A stretch of 21,365 nt of DNA from a virus. The stretch spans positions 1 through 21,365 of the IMG/VR virus record IMGVR_UViG_3300021378_000195. One strand, written 5' to 3'. The notes under the pieces were generated by a model that worked only from the letters and a program-made list of their open reading frames with translations, searched no databases and was not told the origin of the DNA. The position numbers and the translations under genes are program-made. This document shows positions 2 to 21,365 of the stretch, in pieces (within the stretch, counting starts at the first letter, position 1; the number at the start of each line of letters is the position of its first letter).

Positions 2-208
2 ATGGACCTCGTTGGCTACTGCGTCATCGCGATGATGTTGCACGACGGCACGTTCCACCTGCCCGTCCAGCCGACCCTCCCAGGCTTCGACCTCGACCAG
101 CCACCCACGGTCACGGTCAGCGACTCGTCACGACCCGACCTGTTCTGGCGTGGCGAAACGTACGCCGAACATCACCGCCTGGATGAGATCCGAGAACAGT
201 TCCAGTGA
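2..208 (+). CDS. Small hypothetical protein, first gene of plus-strand operon (start uncertain)
   Basis: A 68-residue reading frame begins with ATG at base 2. The window starts one base earlier, so the true start may lie upstream and no ribosome site can be judged. The product is mildly acidic, has no membrane segment or cysteine pair, and carries a proline-rich stretch (LPVQPTLPGFDLDQPP, residues about 20-35) followed by a polar helix-prone tail (RLDEIREQF). I do not recognise the family. Its TGA stop overlaps the GTG start of the next gene as GTGA. This is the same 4-nt overlap used by the next three genes, and is the main argument that it is real and co-translated with them. Confidence 0.6.
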   Translation: MDLVGYCVIAMMLHDGTFHLPVQPTLPGFDLDQPPTVTVSDSSRPDLFWRGETYAEHHRLDEIREQFQ

Positions 209-942: not shown

Positions 943-1829
943 TTGACGTACCCCACAACATCCACGACCACATGCGTGTCGCGCAACGACTGAATGTCGA
1001 ACTGTCCATTCTTCAACGGAACGAAGTGCGTGTTCGCCAACGTGTCACCCTGCTCGTAGTTCAAGCACGATGTCTCACCCAAGATCGGGTCAGCAGGCGC
1101 AGCGACCGACAGGAACCCTGGTCCCTCGGGCTGCGTCACCGTCAACGTAGCAATGGCCCCAGTCGCGTCCTTCGGCACACCGTCACCAATGTTGAAACGG
1201 TAAGGCTCACCCCCATCAAGCTTCTTGCCAGGCCACACCCGCGTGTCCGCTGATCGGTACTGCTGAATCATTGCCATGTCTTCATCCTTCGGGGGGTCTG
1301 GTGTGGGCGCTTGATGGCCGATAATGCCTTGCCTGATCTGTTCGATGATTCCCTCGCCAGCGCACGCAGTCCAGTCGATCTCTCCGTGCCATCGGACGGG
1401 CCAATCTGGCTGAGTGGCGATCAGAGCGTTGACCGAAGCAACAGCTTCGGGCGATGCAGGGTTCTGTCCCCCGACAGCAATCTGAATGCTGCGGGTCACG
1501 TTGTTCTTGCCTCCCCCAACTTTGCGGCCAGGGTTACTTGCAGGGTTGTAGACACGCACGCCACGAAACCCCTCGATGCCACGCACCGCCCAAAGGCTTC
1601 CCGACTGTGACGCCACCACTGAGTAGCCGTAGCTGTAGCCCCGACCATTTTTGTATGACCGCTGGGACGCCCTGAGTGACCTAATCATCTGTGCGTCAGT
1701 GCGCGGTTCGTACATTGACGGCGACCCTGGGTAATGAATGATCCATTCGCCAGGCACACCCTTAGGCGCAGGTCCAGTTATCGGCAGGGAGTCGTCTTCC
1801 CACTCCCACTGGGGGTGAATATGAACCAT
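939..1829 (-). CDS. Endolysin: amidase domain plus actinobacterial surface-protein domain
   Basis: Probable N-acetylmuramoyl-L-alanine amidase that cuts host peptidoglycan for lysis. ATG at 1829 overlaps the TGA of the giant upstream gene as TGATG. An in-frame GTG one codon earlier is less likely. Residues about 25-170 form an amidase_2/PGRP-like domain, with IIHYPG holding His32, and H-G-E-I-D-W-T-A-C-A-G holding His148 and Cys156, the expected three zinc ligands. The family more often has C-P-G where this protein has C-A-G. After a Pro-rich linker (171-187), residues 188-296 match a domain seen repeatedly in secreted actinobacterial proteins (DTRVW, PKDATGAIATLTVTQPEGPGFLSV, SCLNYEQGDTLAN, HVVVDVVGYV). 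It probably serves as the cell-surface binding half. No signal peptide is seen, so export should need a holin. Confidence 0.85.
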   Translation of the reverse strand: MVHIHPQWEWEDDSLPITGPAPKGVPGEWIIHYPGSPSMYEPRTDAQMIRSLRASQRSYKNGRGYSYGYSVVASQSGSLWAVRGIEGFRGVRVYNPASNPGRKVGGGKNNVTRSIQIAVGGQNPASPEAVASVNALIATQPDWPVRWHGEIDWTACAGEGIIEQIRQGIIGHQAPTPDPPKDEDMAMIQQYRSADTRVWPGKKLDGGEPYRFNIGDGVPKDATGAIATLTVTQPEGPGFLSVAAPADPILGETSCLNYEQGDTLANTHFVPLKNGQFDIQSLRDTHVVVDVVGYVK

Positions 1830-8698: not shown

Positions 8699-8725
8699 AT
8701 GTAATAGCCTTTTTTGTCCCTATCG
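8699..8725 (-). promoter_or_regulatory. Phage promoter-like motif, copy F (before giant virion protein)
   Basis: GGGACA (complement of 8715-8720) is followed by AAAAAGGCTATTACAT and then the ATG of the giant gene, 16 nt later. The TAG stop of the upstream gene (8722-8720) shares its last G with the first G of the motif. There is only a weak purine stretch and no proper Shine-Dalgarno. Confidence 0.65.
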
Positions 8726-9955
8726 GCGCAACATCATGTTGGCGAGAATGCTCATTGCCTGGTCCGACTGCCTGGTGCGACCAGACTGCCTTTCAAGACC
8801 CACCAAGAAGTTTTCCTTGTACGCCGCGTCAGTTGACTTACCCCTCTTCTCCGCTGCACGACGCATCTTCGACCTGTCAGCAGGAGTGATCGGAGGTGTT
8901 TCCATAGCGTCCTCGTAGGCGCGATCCAGTTGACGCCAGTTACCACCCTGGTTACCCAACTGCGACCCAGTGTTTCCCCGCATCTCTGCAAGAACAGGAG
9001 CCATTTCGTCCTGCGGGTACGTCGTGACTCGGGCGTTACGGCTACCTGCGTCGTTCACGCCAGGAACAATGTCCTCGTACTCCATCTGTACTGGCGTCTG
9101 CGCCCAATCACGCGACAAACCCTGACCAGAGATCGGGTCCAACTCTTTCATCGTCTGTGGAGGCTGATATTCCCTAATGAGCTTCGCCGCCTGGGACGTG
9201 CTGTCTTGGATCAACTCCGTACCGTTCGTGACCTCGGGATTCAGGCTTATCTCTTCAACAGCTTCATCGAAAGCGTCATTCGGACCAACGAGTCGCTTAC
9301 TGGCGACTCGGAAGTCCTCCTGAGCCTGCTTGTAATCCATTTCGTCTTGCGCTGCATCTTGACGCAACTGGTCAATGTTGTCCGAGAAGTAGTTGTCAGG
9401 TGTCGGGTCCGTAGAAATACCCATCGCATTGAGTTGCTTCGCCGTTTCCGAAGGCTCAAATGTCGCGTTGGCACGCTGCCGCTCATACTGCTTGATCTCG
9501 GCAACCTGGGGAGCAAGCTCCTTGGCTGTGCTCAATAGCGCCTTGTAACGGGGATTAGCGTCAGCACCGACAAGCAACTGCCCGCGCTCGTCGGAGATGG
9601 CGTCTTCCCCGTTGGGGAACTCGGCGTTGTACTGGGCAATAGCAGCCTGTTCAGGCAAATAACCCTCTTGCAGCGCAATCAACATGCTGTCCAAGAGGCC
9701 ACCCTCGGCGTACTGATCCAGCAGTGCCGTGTTTGGAGGCTCTTTATCGAACGACGACTCAGGCTCCAACAGGCCGTAGTCGAACGTCCCGTTGATAATT
9801 GCCATCAGCGGATTCCCCGCCAAGCCCAACTGATCTTCGAGCAGCTTCATGTTCTGGATCTCTGAGCCGACATCTATCGGCTGGTACGTCTGCTTCGACC
9901 CGTAATACTCAGGCAAGCCTTCCAAAATCATCCGCAGCAACTGTTCGTCGTCCAT
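8720..9955 (-). CDS. Putative internal virion protein C (411 aa)
   Basis: No family recognised by eye. The product is soluble, acidic and mostly helical, with charged coiled-coil-prone stretches at about 140-235 (KELAPQVAEIKQYERQRA, QDEMDYKQAQEDFRVASKRL). Its Arg/Gln-rich C-terminus ends in a short helix, QAMSILANMMLRR. The N-terminus (MDDEQLLRMILEGLPEYYGS) may be an amphipathic docking helix. ATG at 9955 overlaps the TGA of gene B (TGATG). It sits between two other candidate ejection proteins and directly before the giant one, so a role in the internal core or DNA-ejection complex is the best inference. A structural chaperone for the giant protein is the main alternative. Confidence 0.7.
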   Translation of the reverse strand: MDDEQLLRMILEGLPEYYGSKQTYQPIDVGSEIQNMKLLEDQLGLAGNPLMAIINGTFDYGLLEPESSFDKEPPNTALLDQYAEGGLLDSMLIALQEGYLPEQAAIAQYNAEFPNGEDAISDERGQLLVGADANPRYKALLSTAKELAPQVAEIKQYERQRANATFEPSETAKQLNAMGISTDPTPDNYFSDNIDQLRQDAAQDEMDYKQAQEDFRVASKRLVGPNDAFDEAVEEISLNPEVTNGTELIQDSTSQAAKLIREYQPPQTMKELDPISGQGLSRDWAQTPVQMEYEDIVPGVNDAGSRNARVTTYPQDEMAPVLAEMRGNTGSQLGNQGGNWRQLDRAYEDAMETPPITPADRSKMRRAAEKRGKSTDAAYKENFLVGLERQSGRTRQSDQAMSILANMMLRR

Positions 9956-11088
9956 CAGTAGCTCCCGTTCAGAAGGCCAGCTACGTCGTAGCCAGACAAG
10001 TCTTGGTCAGCTTGAAGCCCGTACTGCAACAACTGCTGCGCGAGTTGGAAGACCTCGTTGTCGCGTGCGTTGTCGGCAGCAGTCTGCTGCTGGGCGTATG
10101 CGGCTTCGGCGGCGAGTTGCCGCTGCCTGTAAGCCTCTTCCTTGTCCTGCTGTGCTTTCGCGGCAGCAGCAAGCTGGATCATCTCTTCCGACTCGATCTG
10201 ACGTTTCTCGTTAACAGCCATCGTCATACGGTCAGCGTTCATTCGGGCGTTCGACTGGTCAGTGTTCGCCTCCATCGCGCCGCCATAGTTCGACCAGAAC
10301 GAGTTCAGCAAAGCCATGTCGTCCTCGGCCTGCAACTGTTTCGCCTCAGCGAAACCGTCACCCATTCCCTGAGCGCGAAGTAGAGCAGCGATCTGAGCGT
10401 CGCGAGCCTGCACCTGCACTGGGTTGTAGTCGCGGAAAGAGTTCTCGCTCATCTCGGGGATGGCACCAAACACTTCGTCTACATTTGACCTGCCTGCGGC
10501 TCCAAGCTCCCTGATCTTGTCGCTCATCAGGTCTTCTGGCGCAGGACCAAAGTCCTGCATTGGGGCGACCTTGTTGCGTCGGCGTCCGTTAATGAGAGCC
10601 ATCTGCTGGTCAGCGAAGCTCTTGAAGTTCTTAGGCCCGCCGTAGCCGCCACCGCCTCGGTAGCTGCCGCCAGGCCCAGGCCGATCAGGAACAGGCCCAG
10701 GCGGTCTTGGATCGTTCGGTCCACCAGGCAGCATCCCTACCTCCGCAAGTGCCGTTAAATCCAAGTAGTTGTAATTACGGCCACCCGATTTGTCCTGCTT
10801 GATGTGGTCGAAAATCTTCTGTTGGTCACCAACGAACCCCTCAGGGCCAGTCCCGCCGCTGTACCTATCCGCAGACAAACCAATGCTCTTCAAGTAGTCG
10901 TCGGACACGCTGCCTCTTGCCGCACCAATACCACGACCAGTGCTCGTTCCACGGTGAACCGATGACGATGGGTTCGGGTTGCGGGTTTCGCCCGCTCGCG
11001 TTCCTGCCGACGACGGAGCAGCAGTGTCGCTCCGAGTGATCGTCGTGGGGTTCTGACCCTTGCTTCTTAAAAACTCTTCACGCGTCAT
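9955..11088 (-). CDS. Putative internal virion protein B (377 aa)
   Basis: The N-terminal 60 residues are Ser/Thr/Pro-rich and probably disordered. Residues about 55-120 form a small folded region (DDYLKSIGLSADRYSGG...FDHIKQDK...YLDLTALAEVGML), and 122-150 is a Pro/Gly-rich linker (PNDPRPPGPVPDRPGPGG). From about 230 on there is a long Ala/Gln/Glu-rich helix likely to be a coiled coil (EEMIQLAAAAKAQQDKEEAYRQRQLAAEAAYAQQQ), typical of podoviral core proteins such as those of the T7 gp14/gp15 type. It starts 2 nt after the stop of gene A and overlaps gene C. The family is not recognised, and the role is inferred from position and composition. Confidence 0.7.
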   Translation of the reverse strand: MTREEFLRSKGQNPTTITRSDTAAPSSAGTRAGETRNPNPSSSVHRGTSTGRGIGAARGSVSDDYLKSIGLSADRYSGGTGPEGFVGDQQKIFDHIKQDKSGGRNYNYLDLTALAEVGMLPGGPNDPRPPGPVPDRPGPGGSYRGGGGYGGPKNFKSFADQQMALINGRRRNKVAPMQDFGPAPEDLMSDKIRELGAAGRSNVDEVFGAIPEMSENSFRDYNPVQVQARDAQIAALLRAQGMGDGFAEAKQLQAEDDMALLNSFWSNYGGAMEANTDQSNARMNADRMTMAVNEKRQIESEEMIQLAAAAKAQQDKEEAYRQRQLAAEAAYAQQQTAADNARDNEVFQLAQQLLQYGLQADQDLSGYDVAGLLNGSY

Positions 11089-11090
11089 AA

Positions 11091-11516
11091 CTATCCAATC
11101 AAAGGTCGAAGAGAGTTGATGCCAGCAGCCGTCTGAGTGATCTGCATGGCCTTCTGGTTTTCCAACTCGGCCAGCGCCTGGTCATAGCTGGCTCTGTACA
11201 TGCGGTCCTGCATGTCGTACTGGTTTTGGGTGTCCATTCCCGCCTGGTTGATCTGGCCCACCTGATCGGCGTAGTCGCCCGTAAATTGCTGCAACGCCCG
11301 CTTGTAAACACCCGAATTACCTAAACCTCGCGAGGCATAGTTACTCGTCACTCTCGGCGTCTGACGCTGGAAGTTCTTTCGAGCGTCGCCGCGCTGCTGC
11401 ATGTTCTGCTTCGTGGCACGCTGACGCCCAAAGTTATTGCTGGCCTTCTGCGCGGCATAGGAGTTTTCAATACTCCGACGCTGCGAGAGGTTGTTAGCCA
11501 TCAAGTTTGAGTCCAT
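11091..11516 (-). CDS. Putative internal virion protein A (141 aa)
   Basis: A small basic, Gln/Asn/Arg-rich helical protein. The region of residues about 52-80 (RQTPRVTSNYASRGLGNSGVYKRAL) resembles the conserved YxxRGLxxSG element of small internal virion proteins in podoviruses. It is followed by a coiled-coil-prone C-terminus with many Gln and a final hydrophobic turn. It is the first gene of a unit led by promoter-like motif E. The ATG at 11516 is 16 nt after GGGACA, the same distance as in other units, which favours this start over the ATG five codons later. It probably assembles with B, C and the giant protein, an inference from gene order. Confidence 0.7.
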   Translation of the reverse strand: MDSNLMANNLSQRRSIENSYAAQKASNNFGRQRATKQNMQQRGDARKNFQRQTPRVTSNYASRGLGNSGVYKRALQQFTGDYADQVGQINQAGMDTQNQYDMQDRMYRASYDQALAELENQKAMQITQTAAGINSLRPLIG

Positions 11517-11543
11517 TACTAATAAGCCCTTCTGTCCCTAATC
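11517..11543 (-). promoter_or_regulatory. Phage promoter-like motif, copy E (before internal virion proteins)
   Basis: GATTAGGGACA (GGGACA complement of 11533-11538) is followed by GAAGGGCTTATTAGTA and ATG exactly 16 nt after GGGACA. The TGA of the upstream appendage gene lies immediately before the motif. No hairpin terminator is visible between the two units, so some read-through is expected. Confidence 0.65.
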
Positions 11544-12351
11544 AGCCGACAAACACAGCGGATAGAAACGAGTGGTCCGAACCGTTGCAACCAAAAGCGC
11601 CAGCACTGCCGTTGGCCTGACGGACCTTGACCTTGAAATCAAGCGTGTTGTTTGCAGGCGCAGCCACAATCCAGACGTTGTTCAACGTGAAGCGGTCGCC
11701 CACTGTCGGGTTAGCTGGTGCCCACACCATCGTGTTCAACTGCAACACGTCATCGACATACAGTTCCCCGACAAACGGATTGAGCGCACCGCCGTCGACC
11801 TGGGCGACAGAGAGGTCAATCGTGACGCTGACGATGTACACGCCAGCTTTCGTGTTCGTAATGTTGCCCGTATCAAGGAACGTCTGCACGTTGCTCGTCG
11901 TGTTCAGCGTCCCTGAATAACTCAAGTCGGTGGTGAATTGGGTTTCGACACCCACCCCATCCGCATAAGTGTTCGCCGCCGAAATAGCAGCCGCCTGAGC
12001 AGCGTCAGCCTTCGTTGTCGCATCTGTGGCCGCAGAAGCCAACGTCGCAGCGTCACCATCAGTTCGTGCAGTGTTAGCGGCAGCAACCGCAGCAGTCTGC
12101 GCTGCGTCGTTCGCAGTGACCGTTGCAGAGATCGCAGCATCCGCAACATCCATCTGACCCTTCGTTGCCGCATGAGCATCCGCGGTTCCCGCACCAGGCA
12201 ACGTCAACGCACCAGTCAAAGCCCGAGCGCCATCAACAGTGAAAACATCATTGTTGATGAACGTCTTCAACGCCTCAAAGTTTGCCTGAATCGGGCGAGG
12301 GTCAAGCGTCTGACCGCCAGCAATGTTGTTAGGCAGGTTTACATTTGACAT
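11542..12351 (-). CDS. Tail appendage / receptor-binding candidate, C1q-like C-terminus (269 aa)
   Basis: Three parts are visible. Residues 1-40 (MSNVNLPNNIAGGQTLDPRPIQANFEALKTFIN) match the usual N-terminal attachment segment of phage tail appendages. Residues about 50-135 are Ala/Thr/Asp-rich with repeated A-A-x-x-A spacing, as in trimeric coiled-coil stalks. Residues about 140-269 alternate beta-strand patterns (GVYIVSVTIDLSV, GELYVDDVLQLNTMVW, RFTLNNVWIVAAPANNTLDFKVKV, SFLSAVFVG) typical of a C1q/TNF-like trimeric jelly roll. It probably binds a cell-surface ligand. The start is ATG at 12351, which overlaps the TGA of the tail hub gene (TGATG). The 50-codon upstream extension would lie inside that gene and is rejected. 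Confidence 0.8.
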   Translation of the reverse strand: MSNVNLPNNIAGGQTLDPRPIQANFEALKTFINNDVFTVDGARALTGALTLPGAGTADAHAATKGQMDVADAAISATVTANDAAQTAAVAAANTARTDGDAATLASAATDATTKADAAQAAAISAANTYADGVGVETQFTTDLSYSGTLNTTSNVQTFLDTGNITNTKAGVYIVSVTIDLSVAQVDGGALNPFVGELYVDDVLQLNTMVWAPANPTVGDRFTLNNVWIVAAPANNTLDFKVKVRQANGSAGAFGCNGSDHSFLSAVFVG

Positions 12352-13994
12352 CAGCGAATCCTCCGCATGATCGACTTCCAAATAAGAGCGGTCAAGCCCC
12401 AGGTCTTTCCAAGCTCCCCATGAAGCTCCATCTGGATCGAGGACGCATTCCCCAGCCCACCAGAGCGCTCCAGCGACGAACCCTTTGCGGGCGTACCCCA
12501 AAGAGCGGTCGCATTGTCATCCCACGAACCACCAACAGGTGGTGTCTCCAGCGACGCATCAGTGCCGTCCCACTGAGGGTCCAACACCCAAAGCAGGCCA
12601 GACGACTTCGGCGTGAACGTCATCGTTCGCGTCCGACGCGCAGCGGTTTCTTCCAAGTTGTGGAAGATGTGCAAAGTCAGCTCGTACGGGATATCTGTTT
12701 CCCGAACAATCAGGTCTGGACGCTTCCAACGCTTCTTGATGGTCGGATAGCCCGAGTCTTGCCAGGCGGTTCTGAGGACGGTCGGGAAGTCGATTGCCAC
12801 CCCGTTCAACGTGTCGGTCGGCACCTCCACGGCATCGAGCCGCACCACCGTCGCCTCTGCCCGAGAGCAGCCCAGCGGAGTACCAGACGACGCTGACCCA
12901 GTGATGGGAGCGATAGCGACACCAGACCCAGCGCGCCACAACATCCAGGCACCCAGCGACGGGTCCAGCACAAACACCGATGTGGCCGAAGTCGGCGCAC
13001 CATTCTCGTTGTAAGGGACGGACCAGTACAGCTTCTGGTTGGCCCAACCCAACCATTGAAGCGACGCATCCTGATTGAAGTCGCCACCCGTCTTGAACGA
13101 GGGACGCAAAGATTCCGAAACTTCAGTGATGGAATCGGGGCCAATCGAGTACACGCCGTCAGGCCATGAAACGAAGTAGACGTTCGACTCTGATCGTGTC
13201 AGGCATTGCCTGTTCGACGCACCCACCGTCTTTGTGACGTTGGCCTTCGCGAACGTGTCAGGGTTGGAGCCGTACAGCGCCCACACAGCAGAGGGGAAGA
13301 ACACCAGCAGGTGGTCGCGGTAAGGGACGATGCCAGTGATCGGCCCGCCGCCTTCGGGGAAGTCGATGTAATCGAGGAGCGCCCAAGAGTCAGGATCGTT
13401 TGGGTGTGAGAAACGGAGGCGGTGAGGGTGCTGGTTGCCGCCCTCAAGTGTGCTGGCAACCCACAGGTAGCCGTCGTGGATCGCAACGAAGTCGGCCTTC
13501 GGCATTTGCCCGCCGACAGGTGCCGTGTAATCGTTTGACCAGTTCGACGCAGCATCGGTTAACGCAGTCCATGTTCCGTTCGACCATTCTTGCCCGACGT
13601 TGGCTGTCCCGCAGGCAACGTAAAGATCAGATCCCCAAGGTGCGAAGTCAGCGCCGTGAGGCACTGCACTGGCGACGACGCCAGGTGCTTTGACGAACGC
13701 GCCGCCGTCGTTGGAGGCCCATAGCTCGCCGTTGAGTCCGATGGTGTTGGATACGAACTGCCATTCGGAGCCGTCGCCTAAAACATGGGAGTACAGGGCG
13801 CGCGGGTTCCATGAAGTCGCAGCGACGGTCTGCCAGTCAACCCAGCCTCTCCGTGAGCGAGCACCGAACGACGGGTCAACGTCCATGTTCAACATCCACG
13901 GCGACTGACCTTCTGCGACCTTTAGTTGGTCGGCGCGAAGGTTCAGCCCACCAGTGAAGGCTGCTGTGGTGTCAAGTTGGACGCTGTTAGCCAT
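12351..13994 (-). CDS. Tail hub/nozzle protein, beta-propeller type (547 aa)
   Basis: Probable closure and tail-tip protein below the portal-adaptor, comparable to P22 gp10 or T7 gp12. The N-terminal GGLNLRADQLKVAEGQSPWMLNMDV (residues 15-39) matches the usual opening of such proteins, where the phage binds its target and adaptor. Repeated beta-propeller blades follow, with GSDLYVACG, HDGYLWVA, LRFSHPNDPDSWALLDYIDFPEGGGPITGIVPYRDHLLVFFPSAVWALYG (about 190-240), and NVYFVSWPDGVYSIG. The C-terminal third is a beta-rich domain (KRWKRPDLIVRETDIPYELTLHIF). ATG at 13994 overlaps the TAA of the adaptor gene (TAATG). Function is assigned by pattern and neighbourhood, and the exact subfamily is not resolved. 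Confidence 0.8.
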   Translation of the reverse strand: MANSVQLDTTAAFTGGLNLRADQLKVAEGQSPWMLNMDVDPSFGARSRRGWVDWQTVAATSWNPRALYSHVLGDGSEWQFVSNTIGLNGELWASNDGGAFVKAPGVVASAVPHGADFAPWGSDLYVACGTANVGQEWSNGTWTALTDAASNWSNDYTAPVGGQMPKADFVAIHDGYLWVASTLEGGNQHPHRLRFSHPNDPDSWALLDYIDFPEGGGPITGIVPYRDHLLVFFPSAVWALYGSNPDTFAKANVTKTVGASNRQCLTRSESNVYFVSWPDGVYSIGPDSITEVSESLRPSFKTGGDFNQDASLQWLGWANQKLYWSVPYNENGAPTSATSVFVLDPSLGAWMLWRAGSGVAIAPITGSASSGTPLGCSRAEATVVRLDAVEVPTDTLNGVAIDFPTVLRTAWQDSGYPTIKKRWKRPDLIVRETDIPYELTLHIFHNLEETAARRTRTMTFTPKSSGLLWVLDPQWDGTDASLETPPVGGSWDDNATALWGTPAKGSSLERSGGLGNASSIQMELHGELGKTWGLTALIWKSIMRRIR

Positions 13995-14656
13995 TAGAGC
14001 GAATCAAAGCCGAAGCGCTGGTTGAGTGTCTGCGGGCCGAAGCCCTGGTGCTCGCCACCGTTGAGCACAATCGGACGGTATGTCGGGGGACGGTCGATGT
14101 CTTTCGCCATGTCCTCGATGACCAACTGCCAGCGACGCATGTACTGGGTTTCGAGTTCGGCGTCTTCTTGCTGCGCGTACACCAACGAAACGGCGTAATG
14201 CAGCACGGCCATGTGGAGCCGTTCGTCAAGATCGACCTCTTGAGCGGTGTCGCCAAGCCAGGCGTAATTGGGCAAACGCCAGCCCCGAATCGAGATGGTT
14301 GTCTCGGCATTCGGCTTGGGCCACAGGTACACCTGACGCCCCCAAATGGAGTACGCGCCAGGACGCCCTGAGCGGCTCGCATACGCCTCCTCAGCGAAGC
14401 TCTGGTCAATGTTGTTCAAACGCTCGTTTGAACGCAGAGAAGCGATCTCAGCGACATCTACAGGTAGCGCAGCGGACTGGGTGTCCGCAGGAACCGTGAT
14501 AGTCCACGAAGACTGATATGCGGGCCATTGGCGGCGCTGCGCCGCAGTCCGCTCGAAAGCTTCCTGCAAGAACATGTGCGCCATCTGGTCGGTTACATCG
14601 ACATCATCGAGGTCTGTCTGCGTACGCATCGCGTCAACGAGTTCATCTCGATTCAT
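13994..14656 (-). CDS. Head-tail adaptor protein (220 aa)
   Basis: Probable connector ring protein attached below the portal, like P22 gp4 or T7 gp11. The N-terminal helices (MNRDELVDAMRTQTDL..., FLQEAFERTAAQRRQWPAY) are followed by the beta motif typical of this family. They contain TITVPADTQSAALPVDVAEIASLRS and SIWGRQVYLWPKPNAETTISIRGWRLP (about 100-128), then a helical part with HMAVLHYAVSLVYAQQEDAELETQYMRRW. I choose ATG at 14656 because AGGAAGG lies 8 nt upstream. The in-frame GTG at 14665 sits directly on that site. The gene begins inside the last codons of the upstream small Cys/His gene, so the two are probably translationally coupled. Confidence 0.85.
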   Translation of the reverse strand: MNRDELVDAMRTQTDLDDVDVTDQMAHMFLQEAFERTAAQRRQWPAYQSSWTITVPADTQSAALPVDVAEIASLRSNERLNNIDQSFAEEAYASRSGRPGAYSIWGRQVYLWPKPNAETTISIRGWRLPNYAWLGDTAQEVDLDERLHMAVLHYAVSLVYAQQEDAELETQYMRRWQLVIEDMAKDIDRPPTYRPIVLNGGEHQGFGPQTLNQRFGFDSL

Positions 14657-14885
14657 CCGATTCACCTTCCTGCTTCTTCAAAGCCCGCTGGTGACCTGCA
14701 CACAGGTCTTCCCCCTTGATTGCGTACGCCTTACAGGTGTCGTCTTTCCCCTTACAAGCCCCTTTAGGACGTTCAGCCTTCTCAGGCTTCGGGGGACGGC
14801 GGGCAATCAGGTCGTAGTTCGCCTTGAACTGGGGGTTTGACGCCTTGCGGTCACCGATGTGTTGGACAGGTCGAAATTGGCTCAT
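14643..14885 (-). CDS. Small Cys/His zinc-finger-like protein (80 aa)
   Basis: The product has a basic, Pro/Lys-rich middle (residues 29-43) and a C-x6-C-x10-C-x2-H cluster (Cys44, Cys51, Cys62, His65, in GACKGKDDTCKAYAIKGEDLCAGH). This arrangement recurs in small phage proteins and probably binds one zinc ion. It may contact DNA or act in head completion, which is not proven. The start is ATG at 14885. The frame is open further upstream to a TTG at 14909, but that would run through promoter-like motif D, while the ATG is exactly 16 nt after its GGGACA. It is the first gene of the connector/tail unit and overlaps the adaptor gene. Confidence 0.75.
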   Translation of the reverse strand: MSQFRPVQHIGDRKASNPQFKANYDLIARRPPKPEKAERPKGACKGKDDTCKAYAIKGEDLCAGHQRALKKQEGESDESR

Positions 14886-14912
14886 CCAACTAAGGCATAA
14901 ATGTCCCAAAAG
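14886..14912 (-). promoter_or_regulatory. Phage promoter-like motif, copy D (connector/tail unit)
   Basis: CTTTTGGGACA (GGGACA complement of 14902-14907) is followed by TTTATGCCTTAGTTGG and ATG at 16 nt. It lies directly after a GC-rich terminator stem, so this unit must have its own promoter if the terminator works. No Shine-Dalgarno precedes the ATG. Confidence 0.7.
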
Positions 14913-14933
14913 ACGGGGGGCTTGCGCCCCCCG
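14908..14933 (-). terminator. Rho-independent-like terminator after major capsid gene
   Basis: On the minus strand CGGGGGGC and GCCCCCCG (14933-14926 and 14921-14914) form a perfect 8-bp GC stem with a 4-nt loop GCAA. It is followed by TCTTTT (14913-14908). It lies 24 nt after the capsid stop codon. The T-run is short, so efficiency may be partial. It is the only convincing hairpin terminator in the late region. Confidence 0.75.
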
Positions 14934-14956
14934 CCTCTCAGCAACATCTCATCGAA

Positions 14957-15991
14957 TCAGACGGTCAGACCGTTGATGCGGAAGTGACGACGACGGTTAC
15001 GGGTCGTCATCTGGAGCAGCGACGTGATGATGTCGTACTGCGCGTCGCGGACGCCACCGACTGAGGAGCCAGTCGTGTATGTGCCGTCAACGGGGTTGGT
15101 GGTGAAGCCAGAGTGCTCCATGAAGCGGTCTTTGTGACCGACAATCTGGAGGTACTTTGAGTTGATACCGAACACGGTGCCAGCGGTGCAGTCAAAGTCC
15201 CAGAACAGCGGCATCTTCGATACCTCGACGTTCTCGAACCCTGCGTTGGCGCTGTTCACGTCTTCGTAGCGGACCTGCTGGACGAAGCTGTCTTCGACAG
15301 CCTCGAACGTGCTGAGGTCCGTGAACGCTGCGTCGCAACGGTCGTTGCCAGCGTCAGAAGCCGTGTTGCGTGCGGTACGGATGCCCTTGCGGACATGCTC
15401 ACCAGTGGTGTAGGCAGATCCGTCCACAACAGTCGACTGCCAGAAGGAGTTGCCCCCGACCGACGTGTCGATGCCGCCAACGTGCCCATGCCCAGCAGCA
15501 ACGGCAGTGGCATCGCCAGCAGCGTTGTTGATGAGGTAGCCAAGACCGAACATGGTGTCGGTGCTGGCAGGCGTGTCGGCAAATGCCGCGGTGGAAAGAG
15601 TTGACTTCATCGTTTCCTCGGCCTGAGTGACGCGAGCTTCGAGCAGGTTGATTGCCTGCTCCTTGCCCGAGTTCATCAGCTTCTCACGGCCAGTGATGAA
15701 CACTGTTCCGTACAAGCCTGCCCAGGGGAACGAAGCAGCACTGTGGCCGTCCGTCTTCTGAACCGAGATGATGGTGTCTTCGCCATACCAAGCGGTGTTG
15801 CCATCGGCATACACCAACGGCTCAACGATCTCAGTACCGCCGTCGACCATGCGACGACGACCCTTCTCAAAGAGCCAGCGGTGGAGCGGGCGACCGTTCC
15901 AGATGTTGTCCGCGAATGATCCGCGAATGTTCTCCAGAGTGGACGACATCAAGCCGTCCCAATCTGCGTTACGTCCTTGGTTAACAGCCAT
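14957..15991 (-). CDS. Major capsid protein, HK97 fold (344 aa)
   Basis: Main shell subunit. The sequence follows a known phage capsid family closely. It has PLHRWLFEKGRRRMVDGGTEIVEPLVYADGNTAWY (35-69), FPWAGLYGTVFITGREKLMNSGKEQAINLLEARVTQAEETM (88-128; E-loop and spine helix region), GHVGGIDTSVGGNSFWQS, DLSTFEAVEDSFVQQVRY, KMPLFWDFDCTAGTVFGINSKYLQIVGHKDRF and a C-terminal NRRRHFRINGLT. Length is normal for the family, with no N-terminal protease-delta domain, in line with the separate scaffold gene directly upstream. ATG at 15991 has GAAAGG 8 nt upstream. The gap to the scaffold stop is 24 nt and a terminator follows, so scaffold and capsid form one expression unit. Confidence 0.93.
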   Translation of the reverse strand: MAVNQGRNADWDGLMSSTLENIRGSFADNIWNGRPLHRWLFEKGRRRMVDGGTEIVEPLVYADGNTAWYGEDTIISVQKTDGHSAASFPWAGLYGTVFITGREKLMNSGKEQAINLLEARVTQAEETMKSTLSTAAFADTPASTDTMFGLGYLINNAAGDATAVAAGHGHVGGIDTSVGGNSFWQSTVVDGSAYTTGEHVRKGIRTARNTASDAGNDRCDAAFTDLSTFEAVEDSFVQQVRYEDVNSANAGFENVEVSKMPLFWDFDCTAGTVFGINSKYLQIVGHKDRFMEHSGFTTNPVDGTYTTGSSVGGVRDAQYDIITSLLQMTTRNRRRHFRINGLTV

Positions 15992-16015
15992 AGGAGTTGC
16001 CTTTCATGAAAGAAG

Positions 16016-16852
16016 CTATTGGCTGGATTCCCATGCCATTTCGATTGCTTCTCGGGTGGTTAGAGGTTTGGTTTGCGGAGGGATCGCCACCGTGCCGCCT
16101 GCCGAAGACCCACCCGAAGAGACAGCAGCGGCACTTGCCGCAGACTGCTTACGAGAAGCTTCTTCTTTCGCCTGCTTTGCAGCAGCCGAAGCGGAGGCAT
16201 CTGACTGAGCGGCCCGCAGTTTGCGGAACGCCAAATCGTTAGCGACCATTTCCATGTGGCTTGGGTCGTACAGTCCACGTTCGTAAGCCGCTTTCGCGAC
16301 TTCCTTCTCGTCAAAGTTCTCGCCAAACTGGTTTCTCAACCCGCTGAACGCCTGCCTGTACTCGGCATCTAAATCTTCACGCTGAAAGCGCTCTTCGATT
16401 GCCGCAATACGGTCTGCCATCGGATCGCTTTGTGCGTACGACTGTGCAGGCTCTTCGTCTAACCAATCTGATCCCGTTGACTGGGGCTGCATTGCTGACG
16501 CAACGTCAGCGATGCTCAGTCCGTTCTGCTTTGCCAGATACTCCAAGGTTCCGCGAGGGTTGACCTCAAGCATTCGGTCAAGCGTTGCCGCTCGATCCAG
16601 TTCTCTTCCTCGTTCAGCCAGTTCTTGCGTCTTACGGGTGTAATCCGCTTGGCGAAGTCCAGACTCTCGAAGCTCTTGCACCGAGAGGGTGTCTTCACCG
16701 ACTTGAACGTGGTAGTCCGAAAACTGTTCCAAGTCCAGAATGTTTGGTTGTTCTACGGGTTGTGTCTCAACATCCACCTCGGTTGGCCCATCAGGCTCCG
16801 CTGCAATGTCACTCGCCTCAACTTCCATCGGGGCGTCATATTCGGTATCCAA
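16016..16852 (-). CDS. Scaffolding protein (278 aa, TTG start)
   Basis: Internal assembly scaffold, placed between portal and capsid genes as usual. It has a strongly acidic N-terminal third (residues 1-45) and the element DTLSVQELRESGLRQADYTRKTQELAERGRELDRA (about 54-88), seen in many phage scaffold proteins. Charged helices with MADRIAAIEERFQREDLDAEYRQAF follow. The Ala/Lys/Glu-rich C-terminal region (215-250) ends in a basic and hydrophobic tail (KPLTTREAIEMAWESSQ) of the kind that binds capsid subunits. The TTG start at 16852 is supported by a strong AGGAGG 5 nt upstream. No better in-frame ATG precedes it, because the only upstream ATG is followed at once by TAG. Confidence 0.87.
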   Translation of the reverse strand: MDTEYDAPMEVEASDIAAEPDGPTEVDVETQPVEQPNILDLEQFSDYHVQVGEDTLSVQELRESGLRQADYTRKTQELAERGRELDRAATLDRMLEVNPRGTLEYLAKQNGLSIADVASAMQPQSTGSDWLDEEPAQSYAQSDPMADRIAAIEERFQREDLDAEYRQAFSGLRNQFGENFDEKEVAKAAYERGLYDPSHMEMVANDLAFRKLRAAQSDASASAAAKQAKEEASRKQSAASAAAVSSGGSSAGGTVAIPPQTKPLTTREAIEMAWESSQ

Positions 16853-16857
16853 GAAGT

Positions 16858-16863
16858 CCTCCT
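16858..16863 (-). promoter_or_regulatory. Strong Shine-Dalgarno deciding the scaffold TTG start
   Basis: AGGAGG lies 5 nt before TTG (16852-16850) on the minus strand. It is the strongest ribosome site in the late region and belongs to the only motif-led gene with a longer (39-nt) spacing from GGGACA to its start codon. Confidence 0.85.
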
Positions 16864-16875
16864 ACGGTTGCTTCT

Positions 16876-16902
16876 ACATAAAGGGCAAAACTGTCCCTAA
16901 AT
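16876..16902 (-). promoter_or_regulatory. Phage promoter-like motif, copy C (scaffold/capsid unit)
   Basis: GATTTAGGGACAGTTTTGCC (GGGACA complement of 16892-16897), then CTTTATG, forms the best-formed copy. The first part closely resembles the SP6-type promoter core ATTTAGGTGACA with one base fewer. Here the gene starts 39 nt later, behind a strong ribosome site. Confidence 0.7.
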
Positions 16903-16918
16903 CGCTAAGAGTTGTTTC

Positions 16919-18802
16919 TTAGGCGCTCATTGCTTGGAGTTCTGCCATGACTTCTGGCGGGATGTCGCCTCCAGGCGGCATCCCCATCCCAGGCGGCATT
17001 CCTGGCATTCCAGGCGGCATTCCTTCCATGCCAGGCATCATGCCTTCCATCCCTGGAGGCATTCCTGGCGGCATTCCTTCTGGCGGCATACCTTCTGGCG
17101 GCATACCTTCTGGCGGTATTGCCTCGCCAGGCGCTCCCTGCTGCTGCTGTGGCTGCATCATCATCGAAGTCGGGTCTTTAACACCCATCATCCGAAGCAC
17201 TTCTGGCAAGAACGTCATCGGGTCGATGTAGACGCCCAAATACTGGCCGAATACCTCGTTCATCTCGAACGCCTTCTGCTGCTTGAACGACTCGTTGTTC
17301 GGAGCGGTAGAACCCGCTTCGACCTCGAAGTCGAACTCGCCTGCGATGTAGTCCGCATCGAACTTCACCCAAGTCGGATGCGACATGCCCACAATGCGGA
17401 CAACATGCTCGCCAGTCATGAACTGCTGCATTAGTTGGATCAGGCGTTGCCCGATCTCACCTAAAACCCGTTCGATGCCAGCCAGCTTGTCAGCCGACCG
17501 CGCGTTCGACGCGTCCTGAATCATCGCTGCCTCAGTCGCTGTGCGACGAATGTTCTGACCGCCGCCACGCTGATACTCCGACGTGCCCGAAACACGGTCA
17601 ATGTCGGAGATGATGAGGTCGGACTGGTTGTAGAACTCGGCAGGCGTGCCCTGGACAGGCATAGCGACCACAGAACGGTCCATGTCCTGAATGTCACCTG
17701 GGTAGGGCACCATCTCGTTGTCGACATCAGACTTGAGGCCATTAACCCCCGTCTGGTCCCATGTCTCTGCGTGGTACATGTACTTACGCGCAAACTTGGA
17801 ACGGTGGTTGAGCATCTGCGTACGCGTGATGTTCAACTCCTGCTGCAACACCTTGATGGCTTCAAGTTCGCCAATCGGGTAGAAGTGGTCAATCACCTCG
17901 TAGTCACGGAGCATGACGAACGGGTGCCCGAACGAGTACGGCATCTTCGCAGGCTTGATGAGGAACTCGCCCTTATCGGTGCCGTCAGCGAGGAACGTCG
18001 ACACTTCTTGTCGGCGCAGATCGTAGAACTCGATGACATCGCAGTATTCCTGCGAGATGTCATGCTGGTCATCACGGCCGTCTTGGTGGCCCGACTCGTA
18101 GGACGACCTGTGTGACGCTGACGCCAGCTTGCGGGCCGACTTCTCGTAACGGCCATCCACCTTCACGTCGTTCACCAAACGGCGTGTGCGTTGGGCAATC
18201 CACTTCATCTCTTTCGGATGACGTGCGTGCGGGTCCACGAATACGTCGAAGAACGAGATGCGTTCAGCGAACGGACGGTCCTCGTCCCAAGGGACATACA
18301 GTTCGGACTCGATGTTGCCGTCAACGGACGTGTCGCGGTCATCTACGCCATAGGACTGTGCGTCCTCTGGCCCGTTCTCGTCAGCGAGCTTGACCTCTGG
18401 CGGCTTTGTCGCCTTGTAGCCAACCTTGATCCAGCCGTGGCCGACCGTCAGCATGTCATCGACAGCTAGACGGAACTCCTGCTGATAGTGGTAGGTGCGC
18501 CACACATAGTTCAACACTTCTTGTGTGACGACCGCCTGGGCAGCAGATTCAGGCTTGCGGGCGTTCACCGAGAACTTCGGGTTACTGACCGAAACAGACG
18601 GGGCGATGACGTTCTTGGTGGAGAACGCGACGTTCACTACCGCACGGTCAGACTCTGCTGCCGAGTTGTAGTGCTTGCCTTTGTAGAGATCAACGAGAGA
18701 CTTCCACAGCACTTCTTTGCGTTCGTTCTCGCGCCATCGCATCGACTCATGGAGTTGGCCCGATAACTGATTCAGTTTCGATTGGAGTGTTGGGGGAGCC
18801 AT
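16919..18802 (-). CDS. Portal protein (627 aa)
   Basis: Dodecameric DNA-entry channel at the capsid vertex. The N-terminal helix and clip-flanking regions contain [26 protein letters not shown] (about 22-47), [25 protein letters not shown] and [33 protein letters not shown], a typical portal wing pattern. Further on are [25 protein letters not shown] and [37 protein letters not shown], and the stem/crown helices after about 430 ([57 protein letters not shown]). The last 70 residues are a Met/Pro/Gly repeat tail. ATG at 18802 follows the holin-like gene by 5 nt, with GAGG 10 nt upstream. Position between terminase and scaffold agrees. Confidence 0.9.
16947..17132 (-). repeat. Low-complexity Met-Pro-Gly repeat at the portal C-terminus
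   Basis: The coding sequence repeats PPEGM, PPGM and PGME units from about residue 557 to 617 of the portal protein. Within it three tandem 15-bp units (17067-17081, 17082-17096, 17097-17111; the last two identical) encode PEGMP. The tail is probably disordered or polyproline-like and prone to slippage length variation. Confidence 0.9.
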
Positions 18803-18807
18803 CTAGT

Positions 18808-19032
18808 TCAGACCTCTTCGGCCTCTTCGGGCATCGACGGGTGCTGCCAGTTCGTCTTGAAGTAGACGGCCAGCCACTGTGCTGACGCGACGCCAAGGAG
18901 CTGCACCCACTGCTCAGGGTCGATAGCTGTGCCCTCTGTCACCGCTTCGGTGAAGAGGCCGACGACGATAGGGATGAGGAACGCAACCCAGGCTTTTCCT
19001 GCCTTGTAGAAAGAATCCATGATTGTTTGCAT
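18808..19032 (-). CDS. Holin-like membrane protein (74 aa)
   Basis: Two hydrophobic stretches, residues about 12-29 (AWVAFLIPIVVGLFTEAV) and 42-58 (WVQLLGVASAQWLAVYF), are joined by a short loop with IDPEQW, and the end is polar and acidic. This layout, with the pattern W...LG...A..L.VYF.TN in the second segment, resembles small holins of actinobacteriophages (DUF7439-like). It would form the pore that releases the signal-less endolysin. ATG at 19032 overlaps the TAA of the upstream gene (TAATG) with GGAGG 4 nt upstream, and a second Met at codon 5 is possible. Family membership is by eye only. Confidence 0.65.
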   Translation of the reverse strand: MQTIMDSFYKAGKAWVAFLIPIVVGLFTEAVTEGTAIDPEQWVQLLGVASAQWLAVYFKTNWQHPSMPEEAEEV

Positions 19033-19328
19033 TACGCCTCCGCGTTTACTGGGGTGTGACCGAGTTCGATGAGTTGATTAGAAAGCTCACTGATGTGAAG
19101 CTCAAGTTGGACGATCTTCTTGTTGAGAGAAGCGACCTGGCCCGACAAGGAGCCGACCGCGACGATCAACTCCGAGATCCGTTCCGACTGCGGCTCAACA
19201 AGGAGCAGGGCGCTTTCGGTGATCTCCCGAGCGCCAGAAATGCTTTCTCGGGAACGACCCCAAATCAGTCCTGCGATGACTGTGAGCAAACCTAAAACTG
19301 ATGCGGCGATGACGGCGGCGGGATTCAT
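19032..19328 (-). CDS. N-anchored membrane protein with coiled coil (98 aa)
   Basis: One N-terminal transmembrane helix (residues 4-23, AAVIAASVLGLLTVIAGLIW) is followed by Arg residues and a long heptad-rich helix, about 48-90 (ISELIVAVGSLSGQVASLNKKIVQLELHISELSNQLIEL). The topology is compatible with an inner spanin-like or DUF2746-like lysis accessory protein found beside holins in actinophages. A host with a single membrane would make a true spanin unnecessary. It is coupled to the holin-like gene by TAATG. There is no clear Shine-Dalgarno before its ATG, so translation may depend on the upstream gene 15 nt away. Confidence 0.65.
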   Translation of the reverse strand: MNPAAVIAASVLGLLTVIAGLIWGRSRESISGAREITESALLLVEPQSERISELIVAVGSLSGQVASLNKKIVQLELHISELSNQLIELGHTPVNAEA

Positions 19329-19343
19329 TGGAGTAGGCCCGCA

Positions 19344-19595
19344 CTACGCGTAATTCACCGATGTCTTGGGCCGAACCTCTCGGCCTTGGGCTGCTGCCGA
19401 AGACACGATGTCGTCCTGTACTTCACGGATTGTCTCGTTATGGAAGGACTCTCTGCCTCCCTGCGCCCCGCGAAACGAGAAAGACAAGCCAGAGATATGG
19501 CATTTAAAGCACACCAAACCACGGCTGCGTACATCGTCAGCTTGAACGGACTCAACACGGCCGCACTCTTCGCACTCGTATTCAAAGGTTGTCAT
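19344..19595 (-). CDS. Zinc-ribbon protein (83 aa)
   Basis: The N-terminal MTTFEYECEECGRV resembles the opening of FmdB/rubredoxin-type zinc ribbons. Cysteines at 8, 11, 29 and 32 (CEEC and CFKC) make a complete four-ligand site. The C-terminal half (SFHNETIREVQDDIVSSAAAQGREVRP) recalls small proteins often found just after terL in actinophages. Function is unknown and could be regulatory or packaging-related. The start is ATG at 19595. The frame is open to a TTG at 19601, but the ATG is exactly 16 nt after GGGACA of motif B, as in other units. No ribosome site precedes it except a G-run touching the start. Confidence 0.75.
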   Translation of the reverse strand: MTTFEYECEECGRVESVQADDVRSRGLVCFKCHISGLSFSFRGAQGGRESFHNETIREVQDDIVSSAAAQGREVRPKTSVNYA

Positions 19596-19622
19596 CCCCA
19601 ATAGGCAAAAGTGTCCCGAAAA
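19596..19622 (-). promoter_or_regulatory. Phage promoter-like motif, copy B (zinc-ribbon/holin/portal unit)
   Basis: TTTTTCGGGACA (GGGACA complement of 19612-19617) is followed by CTTTTGCCTATTGGGG and ATG at 16 nt. It occupies the short gap after terL (stop at 19641), the only non-coding space in the area. Confidence 0.7.
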
Positions 19623-19640
19623 ACTTGGAACATCGTTCGA

Positions 19641-21230
19641 TCAGAAAGCGTCACCGCCGACGTATGAAACGGAAGGCGTCGTTTCAGCCCGAGATTGACG
19701 CATGTGCCAGTCCATCGAGCCGACAACCATCGGCTTCTCAGGCTGATATTTCCGCAGGAACACATACTTCGATCCCTGGTTGCAGATCGCCAACGACATC
19801 ACACGGTCATCGTGAGGCGAACCAGACATCCGACCGTTGTTGTCTCGGGTAAACGCCCGCATCTCCGCAATCGTTTCCTTGTCGTACAACTTCATCGACT
19901 GGTCACGGATCGCCCTGTTCAACTCGTCAATCGCTAAACGCTTCGTCACCTGGGTGGTTCGCCAACCCAAAGCGTCCGTCGCATCAGCGTTACGAACGCC
20001 GACGCGCCTCTCCCGATACAGCGGGAAGTAGTTCGCACGGTTCAACGCCGTCAAGGTCGTCAAGCCGTGGTTATTGGACTCCACCAGAATCAAAGCGTTG
20101 TTGTAGAACTCGCCCAACGGGATGCACACGTCAGTGCCCAACAAGTCAGGGTCAATGTGGCCGTGCCAGTGCGCCACAATCTCTCCCGTCTTCACGTCCT
20201 GCACATGGATTGACGAATAGTCGCCATGAATCAGACCCTCAGCCACGTCAACGCCCATGCAGTATCTGTGGTCGGGGAGAGGTTCAGTGAAAATGCGTAA
20301 CGGGCCTCGAATGTCTTCGAGGAACGTGCCGTCCGTGTCGCCATCGAGCCAGCCGCGTAACGGCTCTTTCGTTTCCGTTTCCCGCAGGAACTCAAGGTCG
20401 AACACTGGACGACCAGAACGCAGGAACGCTTCGTCAGGGTTGTCTGGATATTCCTGAGCCAACTGCCAGTCAGGCAAGTCGGCTTTCTGTCGGGCGTACC
20501 ATTCGTCGTCGCGCCCCGAGGCGCGCCAAGAGTGGAAGATCGACTTGAAACGGTTTGTTCCCGCCTGAGCGCCAGTGAAAGTCTTGTGGAACAAGTTTCC
20601 CTCGCCGTTCGCTGTACCCAACATGACGCAAGAGCCACCTACGTCCACAACAGGTTCGATAGCAGCCCAGGCTTCTTCGCTGTTGGGGAGTTGCCCGATC
20701 TCGTCAACGACGATGTAGAAGGCGGTGACACCACGCGCAGGGTCCGACGCTGACGGCAGCGATTCCATGATCGACTCGTTGGTGAACTTGATTTCCGACT
20801 TGTTTGCTTCAAACAGTGGTCCCCGATGCAACATCCATGTCGGCAGGTATCGGGAGGCGTAGCGGGCGTGAACGAGCAGCTTCTGTGAGTCACGTTCCGT
20901 CTTCGACAGCATGATGATGGTGCGGTCGGGGTAGAAGAAGCAGCACCAGAAACAGAAGATTGACACCAGGGTTGAGAACCCGATCTGTCGCGCTTTGAGC
21001 GCAACAGTGAATCGGTGGGTAAGCCACAGTTCGACTGTTTCGCGTTGGGCGGGCCGAAGCTCGAACTTGATCTTGCCTTTGCCTGGGAAACGGATGTAGG
21101 CGTACTGGGCGCACCAGTATTCAAATGCGTCAGCAAGTTCTGTTGGTGTCGCGTCTTCCCATTCGGGGGCGCATTTGCGCCATTCGCGTTCGTGTAACAG
21201 TTCTCCGAGGGATGCCTGTGTTTCGCTCAC
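19641..21230 (-). CDS. terL: Terminase large subunit, TerL (529 aa)
   Basis: ATP-driven DNA packaging motor and nuclease that docks on the portal. The ATPase half contains KARQIGFST (79-87, Walker A-like), FYIVVDEIG (171-179; Walker B D176 and E177) and GTAN (205-208, coupling motif). The nuclease half has MGVDVAEG (325-332; D328), LVESNNHG (382-389; E384) and SPHDDRVMSLA (471-481; D474/D475), the expected acidic metal ligands of the RNase H-like fold. Length is normal and the domains look intact. The GTG start at 21230 is chosen because it directly follows the upstream TAG and lies 15 nt after GGGACA of motif A. No small terminase subunit is visible within the window. Confidence 0.93.
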   Translation of the reverse strand: MSETQASLGELLHEREWRKCAPEWEDATPTELADAFEYWCAQYAYIRFPGKGKIKFELRPAQRETVELWLTHRFTVALKARQIGFSTLVSIFCFWCCFFYPDRTIIMLSKTERDSQKLLVHARYASRYLPTWMLHRGPLFEANKSEIKFTNESIMESLPSASDPARGVTAFYIVVDEIGQLPNSEEAWAAIEPVVDVGGSCVMLGTANGEGNLFHKTFTGAQAGTNRFKSIFHSWRASGRDDEWYARQKADLPDWQLAQEYPDNPDEAFLRSGRPVFDLEFLRETETKEPLRGWLDGDTDGTFLEDIRGPLRIFTEPLPDHRYCMGVDVAEGLIHGDYSSIHVQDVKTGEIVAHWHGHIDPDLLGTDVCIPLGEFYNNALILVESNNHGLTTLTALNRANYFPLYRERRVGVRNADATDALGWRTTQVTKRLAIDELNRAIRDQSMKLYDKETIAEMRAFTRDNNGRMSGSPHDDRVMSLAICNQGSKYVFLRKYQPEKPMVVGSMDWHMRQSRAETTPSVSYVGGDAF

Positions 21231-21256
21231 CTAGTAATACATCTTTGTCCCGCTGT
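21231..21256 (-). promoter_or_regulatory. Phage promoter-like motif, copy A (before terL)
   Basis: GGGACA (complement of 21246-21251) is followed by AAGATGTATTACTAG and the terL GTG at 15 nt. This copy overlaps the last codons (GTKMYY and stop) of the upstream gene. It lacks the AT-rich flank seen in the other copies and is the weakest match. Confidence 0.5.
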
Positions 21257-21365
21257 CGGCTTCTAATGCCGCTACCCGCTTGCGAAGCTCCTGCAACTCG
21301 GCAACCAACAACGGAAAGAACGCTCTCTGCGCCCATGCCGAAGGCTGGAAGCCTTCTCCGTCTTC
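21231..21365 (-). CDS. 3' end of a tail fibre-like gene (partial, 44 aa visible)
   Basis: The open frame enters from the window edge and ends with TAG at 21233-21231, immediately before the terL start. The visible C-terminus, DGEGFQPSAWAQRAFFPLLVAELQELRKRVAALEAD..., has a heptad helix (PLLVAELQELRKRVAALEA). It resembles the end of peptidase_S74-type intramolecular chaperone domains or of phage minor tail proteins, where such a helix trimerises the fibre. The catalytic part, if any, lies outside the window. The assignment rests on this short tail only. The frame and the exact junction to terL are well supported. Confidence 0.6.
   Translation of the reverse strand, partial: EDGEGFQPSAWAQRAFFPLLVAELQELRKRVAALEADSGTKMYY

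Follow-up and report, generated by a model that had tools for sequence, protein, structure and literature searches.

Sigma-like late factors encoded by phages form a known kind of regulator, represented by ArpU, Xpf, phiEco32 gp36 and T4 gp55. Ltr and RinA are also known as phage-encoded factors of this sort. For phi13 Ltr, one report (PMC13123087) places the repeats from -107 to -42 relative to a single late promoter. A short GGGACA element was analysed here in the virus record IMGVR_UViG_3300021378_000195. The window, meaning the whole stretch of DNA analysed, is the entire 21,365-base record; it covers a podovirus-like phage's late region, which reads on the minus strand. Comparative analyses indicate that the GGGACA motif serves a large group of uncultivated aquatic phages as a late-gene cis element. 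It is probably a late control element, read by a region-4-like phage factor that would bring host RNA polymerase to the late genes. The layout of this system may prove to be new.

The initial annotation had described six minus-strand GGGACA copies at junctions of the late region, and all six were found in place (J1 to J6, Table 1). In five of them, the distance to the following start codon is 21-22 nt. Further late-strand copies within genes exist as well, although their first G is at 1470, 8322 and 13610, the annotation having given the low coordinate of each; three more copies occur on the plus strand (2650, 7213, 18291). The hexamer itself is not over-represented, with 12 copies on both strands (nine on the late strand) versus 13.4 expected. 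All hexamers were scanned over all 6-nt distance windows at 15 late starts, and GGGACA was the top hexamer with 5 genes. The same scan on dinucleotide shuffles gave a maximum of 3 genes, and 0/500 shuffles reached the GGGACA score. The non-random feature of GGGACA is its placement, not its abundance. Equal frequency inside genes had been named as a point that would count against the motif; the hexamer occurs there at chance level, in a count of the hexamer alone. In a crude, blunt test of hexamer enrichment over all starts, GGGACA ranked top for the window and for G035 but lower in most of the contigs; a generic expectation-maximisation motif search recovered mostly start-codon context. A loose pooling of sites from all loci was dominated by other matches and did not enter the counts. 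A GGGACA at the end of a marine terminase gene is inside coding sequence and was left out of the evidence.

The TA-containing step described after the hexamer was retained, and the rest of the layout was redescribed: 8-11 variable bases are followed by a TA-rich step, with the start codon 2-5 nt further on. In the window copies, these steps are TATTAC, TATTG, TTAG and TATTAG. The bases upstream of GGGACA showed no conservation among the copies; at J4 they form a terminator-like hairpin. The J6 core is overlapped by the TAG stop of the preceding gene. Most of the cassette-headed genes are without a ribosome-binding site at the normal distance; the scaffold leader contains AGGAGG.

Relatives were collected through portal, terminase and capsid proteins (L numbers denote loci, and G numbers denote contigs). 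The annotation had made conservation at syntenic junctions a test of the motif; the element does recur at those junctions in relatives, and its core varies by lineage. GGGACA is found in close relatives (L001-L004, L006, L026-L028, L030, L099, L100, L177, L178, L181), and L100 has one GAGACA in addition. In L005 (portal 66% identical), GAGACA is present at all four junctions where the element was seen. GTAACG or GTGACG occurs in G037, G039, G046, G047, G052, G060, G062, G065, G067, G069, G072 and G073; GTAG[CT][GA] in G057, G058, G059 and 12 terminase loci between L145 and L167; GT[TG]ACAA in G040 and G042; and GTAATA in G049. L153 and L154 have the leader type of the GTAGC loci, yet carry GTAACG at both junctions read. 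The cores match across the junctions within one genome and vary between lineages. The portal-scaffold leader after the TA step is alike across the groups, being GAGCAACC or GGAACAACC, then GGACTC. The segment before the TA step follows the genome, and the segment after it follows the junction, which is the pattern expected around a transcription start. In 27 contigs or parts of contigs, own-core non-genic sites in register (relative to the start codon or ribosome-binding site) numbered 73 on the late strand versus 0 on the opposite strand.

The likely reader of the core is a small sigma-70 region-4-like phage protein. When the proteins from 12 long contigs (31-57 kb) were clustered, seven families were linked in 12/12. 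One of these universal families has, in our judgement, no structural or packaging role: a region-4-like protein of about 110-290 residues. It matches PF04545 (sigma-70 region 4) at up to 1e-7, above the cut-off in 3/6 members tested. Among 28 records, which include T7 and fragments, PF04545 was found in 22 at E<=0.001 and above the cut-off in 11. The phage sigma-factor family phrog_1740 was matched by 11/11 members tested. The predicted fold of the factor matches the sigma region 4 structures 3hug and 2h27 (Foldseek), and a Pfam scan of six members gave no match to sigma region 2 (E<=1). The initial annotation had suggested looking elsewhere in the genome for a new sigma factor; in relatives, the protein found comes close, being little more than sigma-70 region 4. 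In the contigs whose gene order was read, the factor gene comes last in the early operon and faces the late block. In many phages a DUF1599-like domain, labelled from annotations, is fused to or follows the factor, and a region-4 match was obtained in 54/80 loci found through this pair. The factor of MW202803 was linked via the neighbouring DUF1599-like domain, and its region-4 part was then read directly (profile E 0.029). When 50,697 phage records were searched by tblastn with the G034 factor, no match came up, although a divergent factor exists in MW202803.

The recognition helix and the core were compared in 25 contigs with both portal and factor. The helix PKT[TS]xAR[RQ]RD goes with the core GGGACA, [TS]K[TP]H[AV]WR with GTAACG, SDVHxMR with GTAGC, SRMHASR with GTTACA, and SNVHAWR with GTAATA. 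With portal similarity removed, helix similarity and core sharing were correlated (partial r 0.69, 0/2000 permutations). The nearest neighbour shares the core in 23/23 cases by helix, 22/23 by portal and 22/23 by the whole region-4 core. The portal exception is G062 (GTAACG), which is nearest to G059 (GTAGC) with a portal 76% identical. Its factor is 32% identical to that of G059, and 62-71% identical to those of G060 and G046, which have the same core as G062. Against G057-G059 as a group, the G062 portal is 74-76% and the factor 32-38% identical.

A fresh search with PKT-type factors gave 80 loci with the PKT helix, some of them in contigs already used (L306, L353, L359, L373). They contain 22 distinct late-strand, in-register GGGACA cassettes, from which exact duplicates were removed and among which near-duplicates remain (L319/L324/L325/L326, L313/L314, L340/L344). 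Three control hexamers in the same loci gave 0, 0 and 1 sites. Three GTAACG matches in the PKT loci are parts of GTAACGGGACA. L330 (PKTSLARRR) carries GGGACAGTTTGCCCTTATAGGTATGG, which is of the window type. Among 22 loci whose helix is of the KxHxW type, there were 5 occurrences of GTAACG and none of GGGACA. No core was found in three DVHxM loci of the fresh search; their longer contigs have 11. These comparisons indicate that recognition helix and core vary together to a degree that structural-gene kinship does not explain.

The geometry of the element was read from 79 sites, or 63 after removal of duplicates, of which a few (such as three G046 rows) are probably chance matches. The core is 19-23 nt before the start codon in 57/63 sites, with 18-26 nt allowed. 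TA steps cluster at -8 to -3 (76, versus 20 at -17 to -9). TANNNT occurs at 8-13 bp from the core in 13/63 sites, and 5 times at -14 to -9 before the start codon, which is its position in leaderless sigma-A promoters. A sigma-70 scan of 8000-21365 gave 1 pair versus 4.0 in shuffles, with none at a junction. This layout may reflect either an RNA start that coincides with the start codon or lies a few bases from it, with the region-4 domain beside the melted stretch, or another action such as blocking.

From position, strand, covariation and protein family, we infer that the factor would recruit polymerase to the late blocks. It would be made early, from the end of the early operon, bind the cores directly, bring in host RNA polymerase and activate transcription. 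Each cassette would consist of the 6-bp core GGGACA, a spacer of about 8-11 bp, the TA-rich step and the start codon, and the late blocks would be switched on singly, with RNA beginning at the start codon itself or no more than a few bases away. If a lineage changed its recognition helix, the cores of its sites would change too. A more specific form is possible but rather doubtful. In this form, a factor with little beyond region 4 would start RNA about 16-22 bp downstream of the box, at or just before the start codon. Such a one-box promoter would differ in layout from -35/-10 and would hold the region-4 domain in the usual place of region 3 or the extended -10, and at least six box/helix specificities would have arisen by concerted genome-wide change.

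Several observations weigh against recruitment by such a factor. The window phage's own factor was not found, and is outside the window. The best Foldseek E-value is 6.1e-3, for a model with a mean predicted local distance difference test score of 75.8, and the marine members fall below the Pfam cut-off. Taken over the whole region-4 core, the partial r drops to just 0.16 (52/2000 permutations), and the permutations, here as for the helix, do not model a tree. Cores of other classes gave 26 late-strand and 15 opposite-strand matches in the 27 contigs, and G030 and G037 are without any own-core site by that criterion. Because the counted sites were used in part to assign the core classes, the agreement of class with core is to some extent built in; this does not affect the zero on the opposite strand or the fresh helix-based search. 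GC-rich relatives (L007-L024, 63-67% GC, portals 49-57% identical) have no such core at the junctions inspected. In freshwater phages, the TAA, TAG or TGA within the core is often the stop codon of the preceding gene. In 23 loci with KSHAW helices (L234, L240, L242, L249 and others), no clear core was seen among the cores tested. The canonical geometry is absent: with a spacer of 16-18 bp after the core, TANNNT was found in 0/63 sites.

The same boxes might also be bound by the factor as a repressor or roadblock early in infection, with the start signal elsewhere. The box overlaps the expected loading site of polymerase or ribosome, and no in-register -35/-10 pair is present, both of which would suit such a role. 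This reading is nevertheless unlikely, since the terminator-like hairpin is directly before J4, so that a new start would be needed there, and no other shared element was seen between the hairpin and the gene. Hairpins before the element at the J4 junction were also seen by eye in G046, G060 and, without the T-run, G062. Terminator-like patterns overall were at chance in the window scan (12 found versus 12.8 expected).

An element at the RNA level, such as a hairpin, processing or translation site in the late mRNA leaders, would fit the tight distance to the start codon, and several copies can pair GGGACA with TGCCC or TGTCC. However, folding was no better than in shuffles for the window-type sites (41/300) and the helix-found sites (133/300), and only 8 marine sites folded better (5/300). 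An RNA hairpin was therefore rejected as a general feature of the sites. The core goes with a DNA-binding helix, and the scaffold copy is 45 nt from its start, which makes an RNA element very unlikely.

The initial annotation had compared the best copy with SP6/K11-type promoters and proposed a new late promoter class. The second idea survives as a new class of late control element, which is syntenic, in register with starts, confined to the late strand and subject to concerted core changes. The first does not. A promoter for a T7/SP6-like single-subunit RNA polymerase would have its core near -18, TATA at -4 to -1 and the start at the next G. The length and the TATAG step do fit this better than sigma promoter geometry, and lineage-specific cores are also known from T7, T3 and SP6. 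On the other side, the polymerase gene that the annotation proposed to look for was not found: PF00940 matched 0/29 related records (many of them fragments, and including a 38 kb contig with overlapping ends), with the T7 control at 9.9e-110. The 2289-aa giant protein also matched no PHROG or Pfam family. The upstream bases of the one resembling copy are not conserved, and the copies share no block 5' of the core. An SP6/T7 promoter, rejected for the lack of a polymerase gene in related records, is highly improbable.

A host factor as reader has next to no probability: WhiA is reported to bind GACAC (PMC3781837), many marine sites read GGGACAC, and WhiB-like genes are present in related records, but WhiA/WhiB reading was rejected because the GTAACG, GTAGC and GTAATA lineages lack GACAC, the sigma-54 spacing GG-N10-GC fails (window copies are 1-2 bp short, as the initial annotation had noted, and the other lineages lack GG and GC), and a conserved host factor would not account for lineage-specific cores. 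The WhiB-like genes (PF02467) occur in 6/29 records (G031, G034, G046, G047, G048, G053). Because some records carry such genes, some of these phages probably infect actinobacteria.

The positions of the elements and of other features are collected in Table 1. The late genes of the window encode terminase, a zinc ribbon, small membrane proteins, portal, scaffold, major capsid, connector, tail, putative ejection proteins, the giant protein and a lysis gene. In a PHROG scan of 16 window proteins, 9/16 were without a match, and several of these product names thus come from the initial annotation or from our own judgement.

Table 1. Positions of the GGGACA elements and other features in the window, and of apparently split terminase genes in marine relatives
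Feature	Record	Coordinates	Strand	First G of core	Core to start codon (nt)	Remarks
J1 cassette, GGGACA to GTG start of terminase gene	window	21230..21251	-	21251	21	same place in L002, L003, L099 (GGGACA) and L100 (GAGACA)
J2 cassette, GGGACA to ATG of zinc-ribbon gene	window	19595..19617	-	19617	22	relatives have their own core there
J3 element, portal/scaffold junction, then the leader	window	16877..16897	-	16897	45	scaffold start 16852
J4 cassette, GGGACA to in-frame ATG (14885) of gene after major capsid gene	window	14885..14907	-	14907	22	
Terminator-like hairpin and T-run directly before J4	window	14915..14932	-			
J5 cassette, GGGACA to ATG of 141-aa gene	window	11516..11538	-	11538	22	also in L004
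J6 cassette, GGGACA to ATG of 2289-aa giant gene	window	8698..8720	-	8720	22	also in L181
Open frame cut by window end, end of DUF1599-like domain (68 aa)	window	2..208	+			in relatives fused to or following the region-4-like factor
Split terminase genes	G034 (L087)	1-335, 323-1159, 1156-2043				
Split terminase genes	G024 (L085)	2124-3020, 3017-3688				
Split terminase genes	G031	46210-47100, 47097-47768				

At the window edge, when the cut frame was compared with every protein of the 12 contigs, the four top-scoring matches were the four members that have a DUF1599-like domain (scores 84, 83, 77 and 75; next 41). Because this frame resembles the end of the DUF1599-like domain, the window is most likely cut inside or next to the factor gene. 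Searches with this 68-aa end and with the lysis gene of the window found no relatives. No close relative of the window phage was established among the loci from the DUF1599/region-4 pair search or the PKT-type factor search.

Some side observations were also made. The portal protein ends in a series of repeats of Pro, Gly and Met (window 16919-17100, minus strand). In marine relatives, the large terminase is apparently split into two genes, an ATPase part and a nuclease part, recognised by likeness; in G034 an unrelated gene is between the two halves. The DUF1599-like, nucleotide-related domain travels with the late factor (L206-L285; G037, G046, G052). The KSHAW-type proteins form a further large class of region-4 factors, and are a lead for other specificities.

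If the one-box form of the promoter is true, these phages would offer a recognition code ready for use, together with cassettes of about 24 bp in which promoter and start codon are fused. In abundant uncultivated aquatic phages, the late elements become predictable from the factor helix, and the reverse. The matched sets of helix and box are a natural experiment on DNA choice by region-4 domains. If the layout is as it looks, it would be a minimal promoter that canonical bacterial initiation leaves unexplained.

Compared with known systems, the promoters of T7, SP6 and K11 share with the present element a short one-block form with a TATAG step before late genes; unlike them, this system has no such polymerase in the 29 records and no upstream conservation. 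Complete phage sigma factors of the phiEco32 gp36 type would be expected to contain region 2, and none was found in the six members here. With sigma-70 region 4 and its -35 element, the predicted factor shares the fold seen in 3hug and 2h27, and the core pattern G-N-N-A-C resembles GGAAC, the -35 element of the ECF type (extracytoplasmic function). Unlike the sigma-70 system, the six members have no detected region 2, and the sites have no -10 at the usual distance. A survey of open-licence literature on GGGACA phage promoters, DUF1599 with a sigma factor, and region 4 with late-gene motifs found nothing recognised as this system.

A further likeness is to the late regulators Ltr, RinA and ArpU from phages that infect Gram-positive hosts. 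These are small phage proteins, some with a sigma-like helix-turn-helix, needed for switching on packaging and structural genes, and the candidate factor resembles them. The RinA profile TIGR01636 gave weak matches in 7/11 members (best 9e-4), and phrog_836 (late transcriptional activator) in 4/11. Unlike phi13 Ltr, as described in PMC13123087, the present system has single short cores at six junctions, about 22 nt before start codons. PBSX Xpf, a positive control sigma-like factor, is a small sigma-like positive factor of phage late genes, which is the role proposed here; on this side, one member (member 1 of A1) matches PRK06930 at 7.3e-4, with a score of 19.3 versus a cut-off of 136. As in the phage sigma-like late factors, a region 4 domain is present in the candidate, and the sites before the late genes change with its helix, in a correlation.

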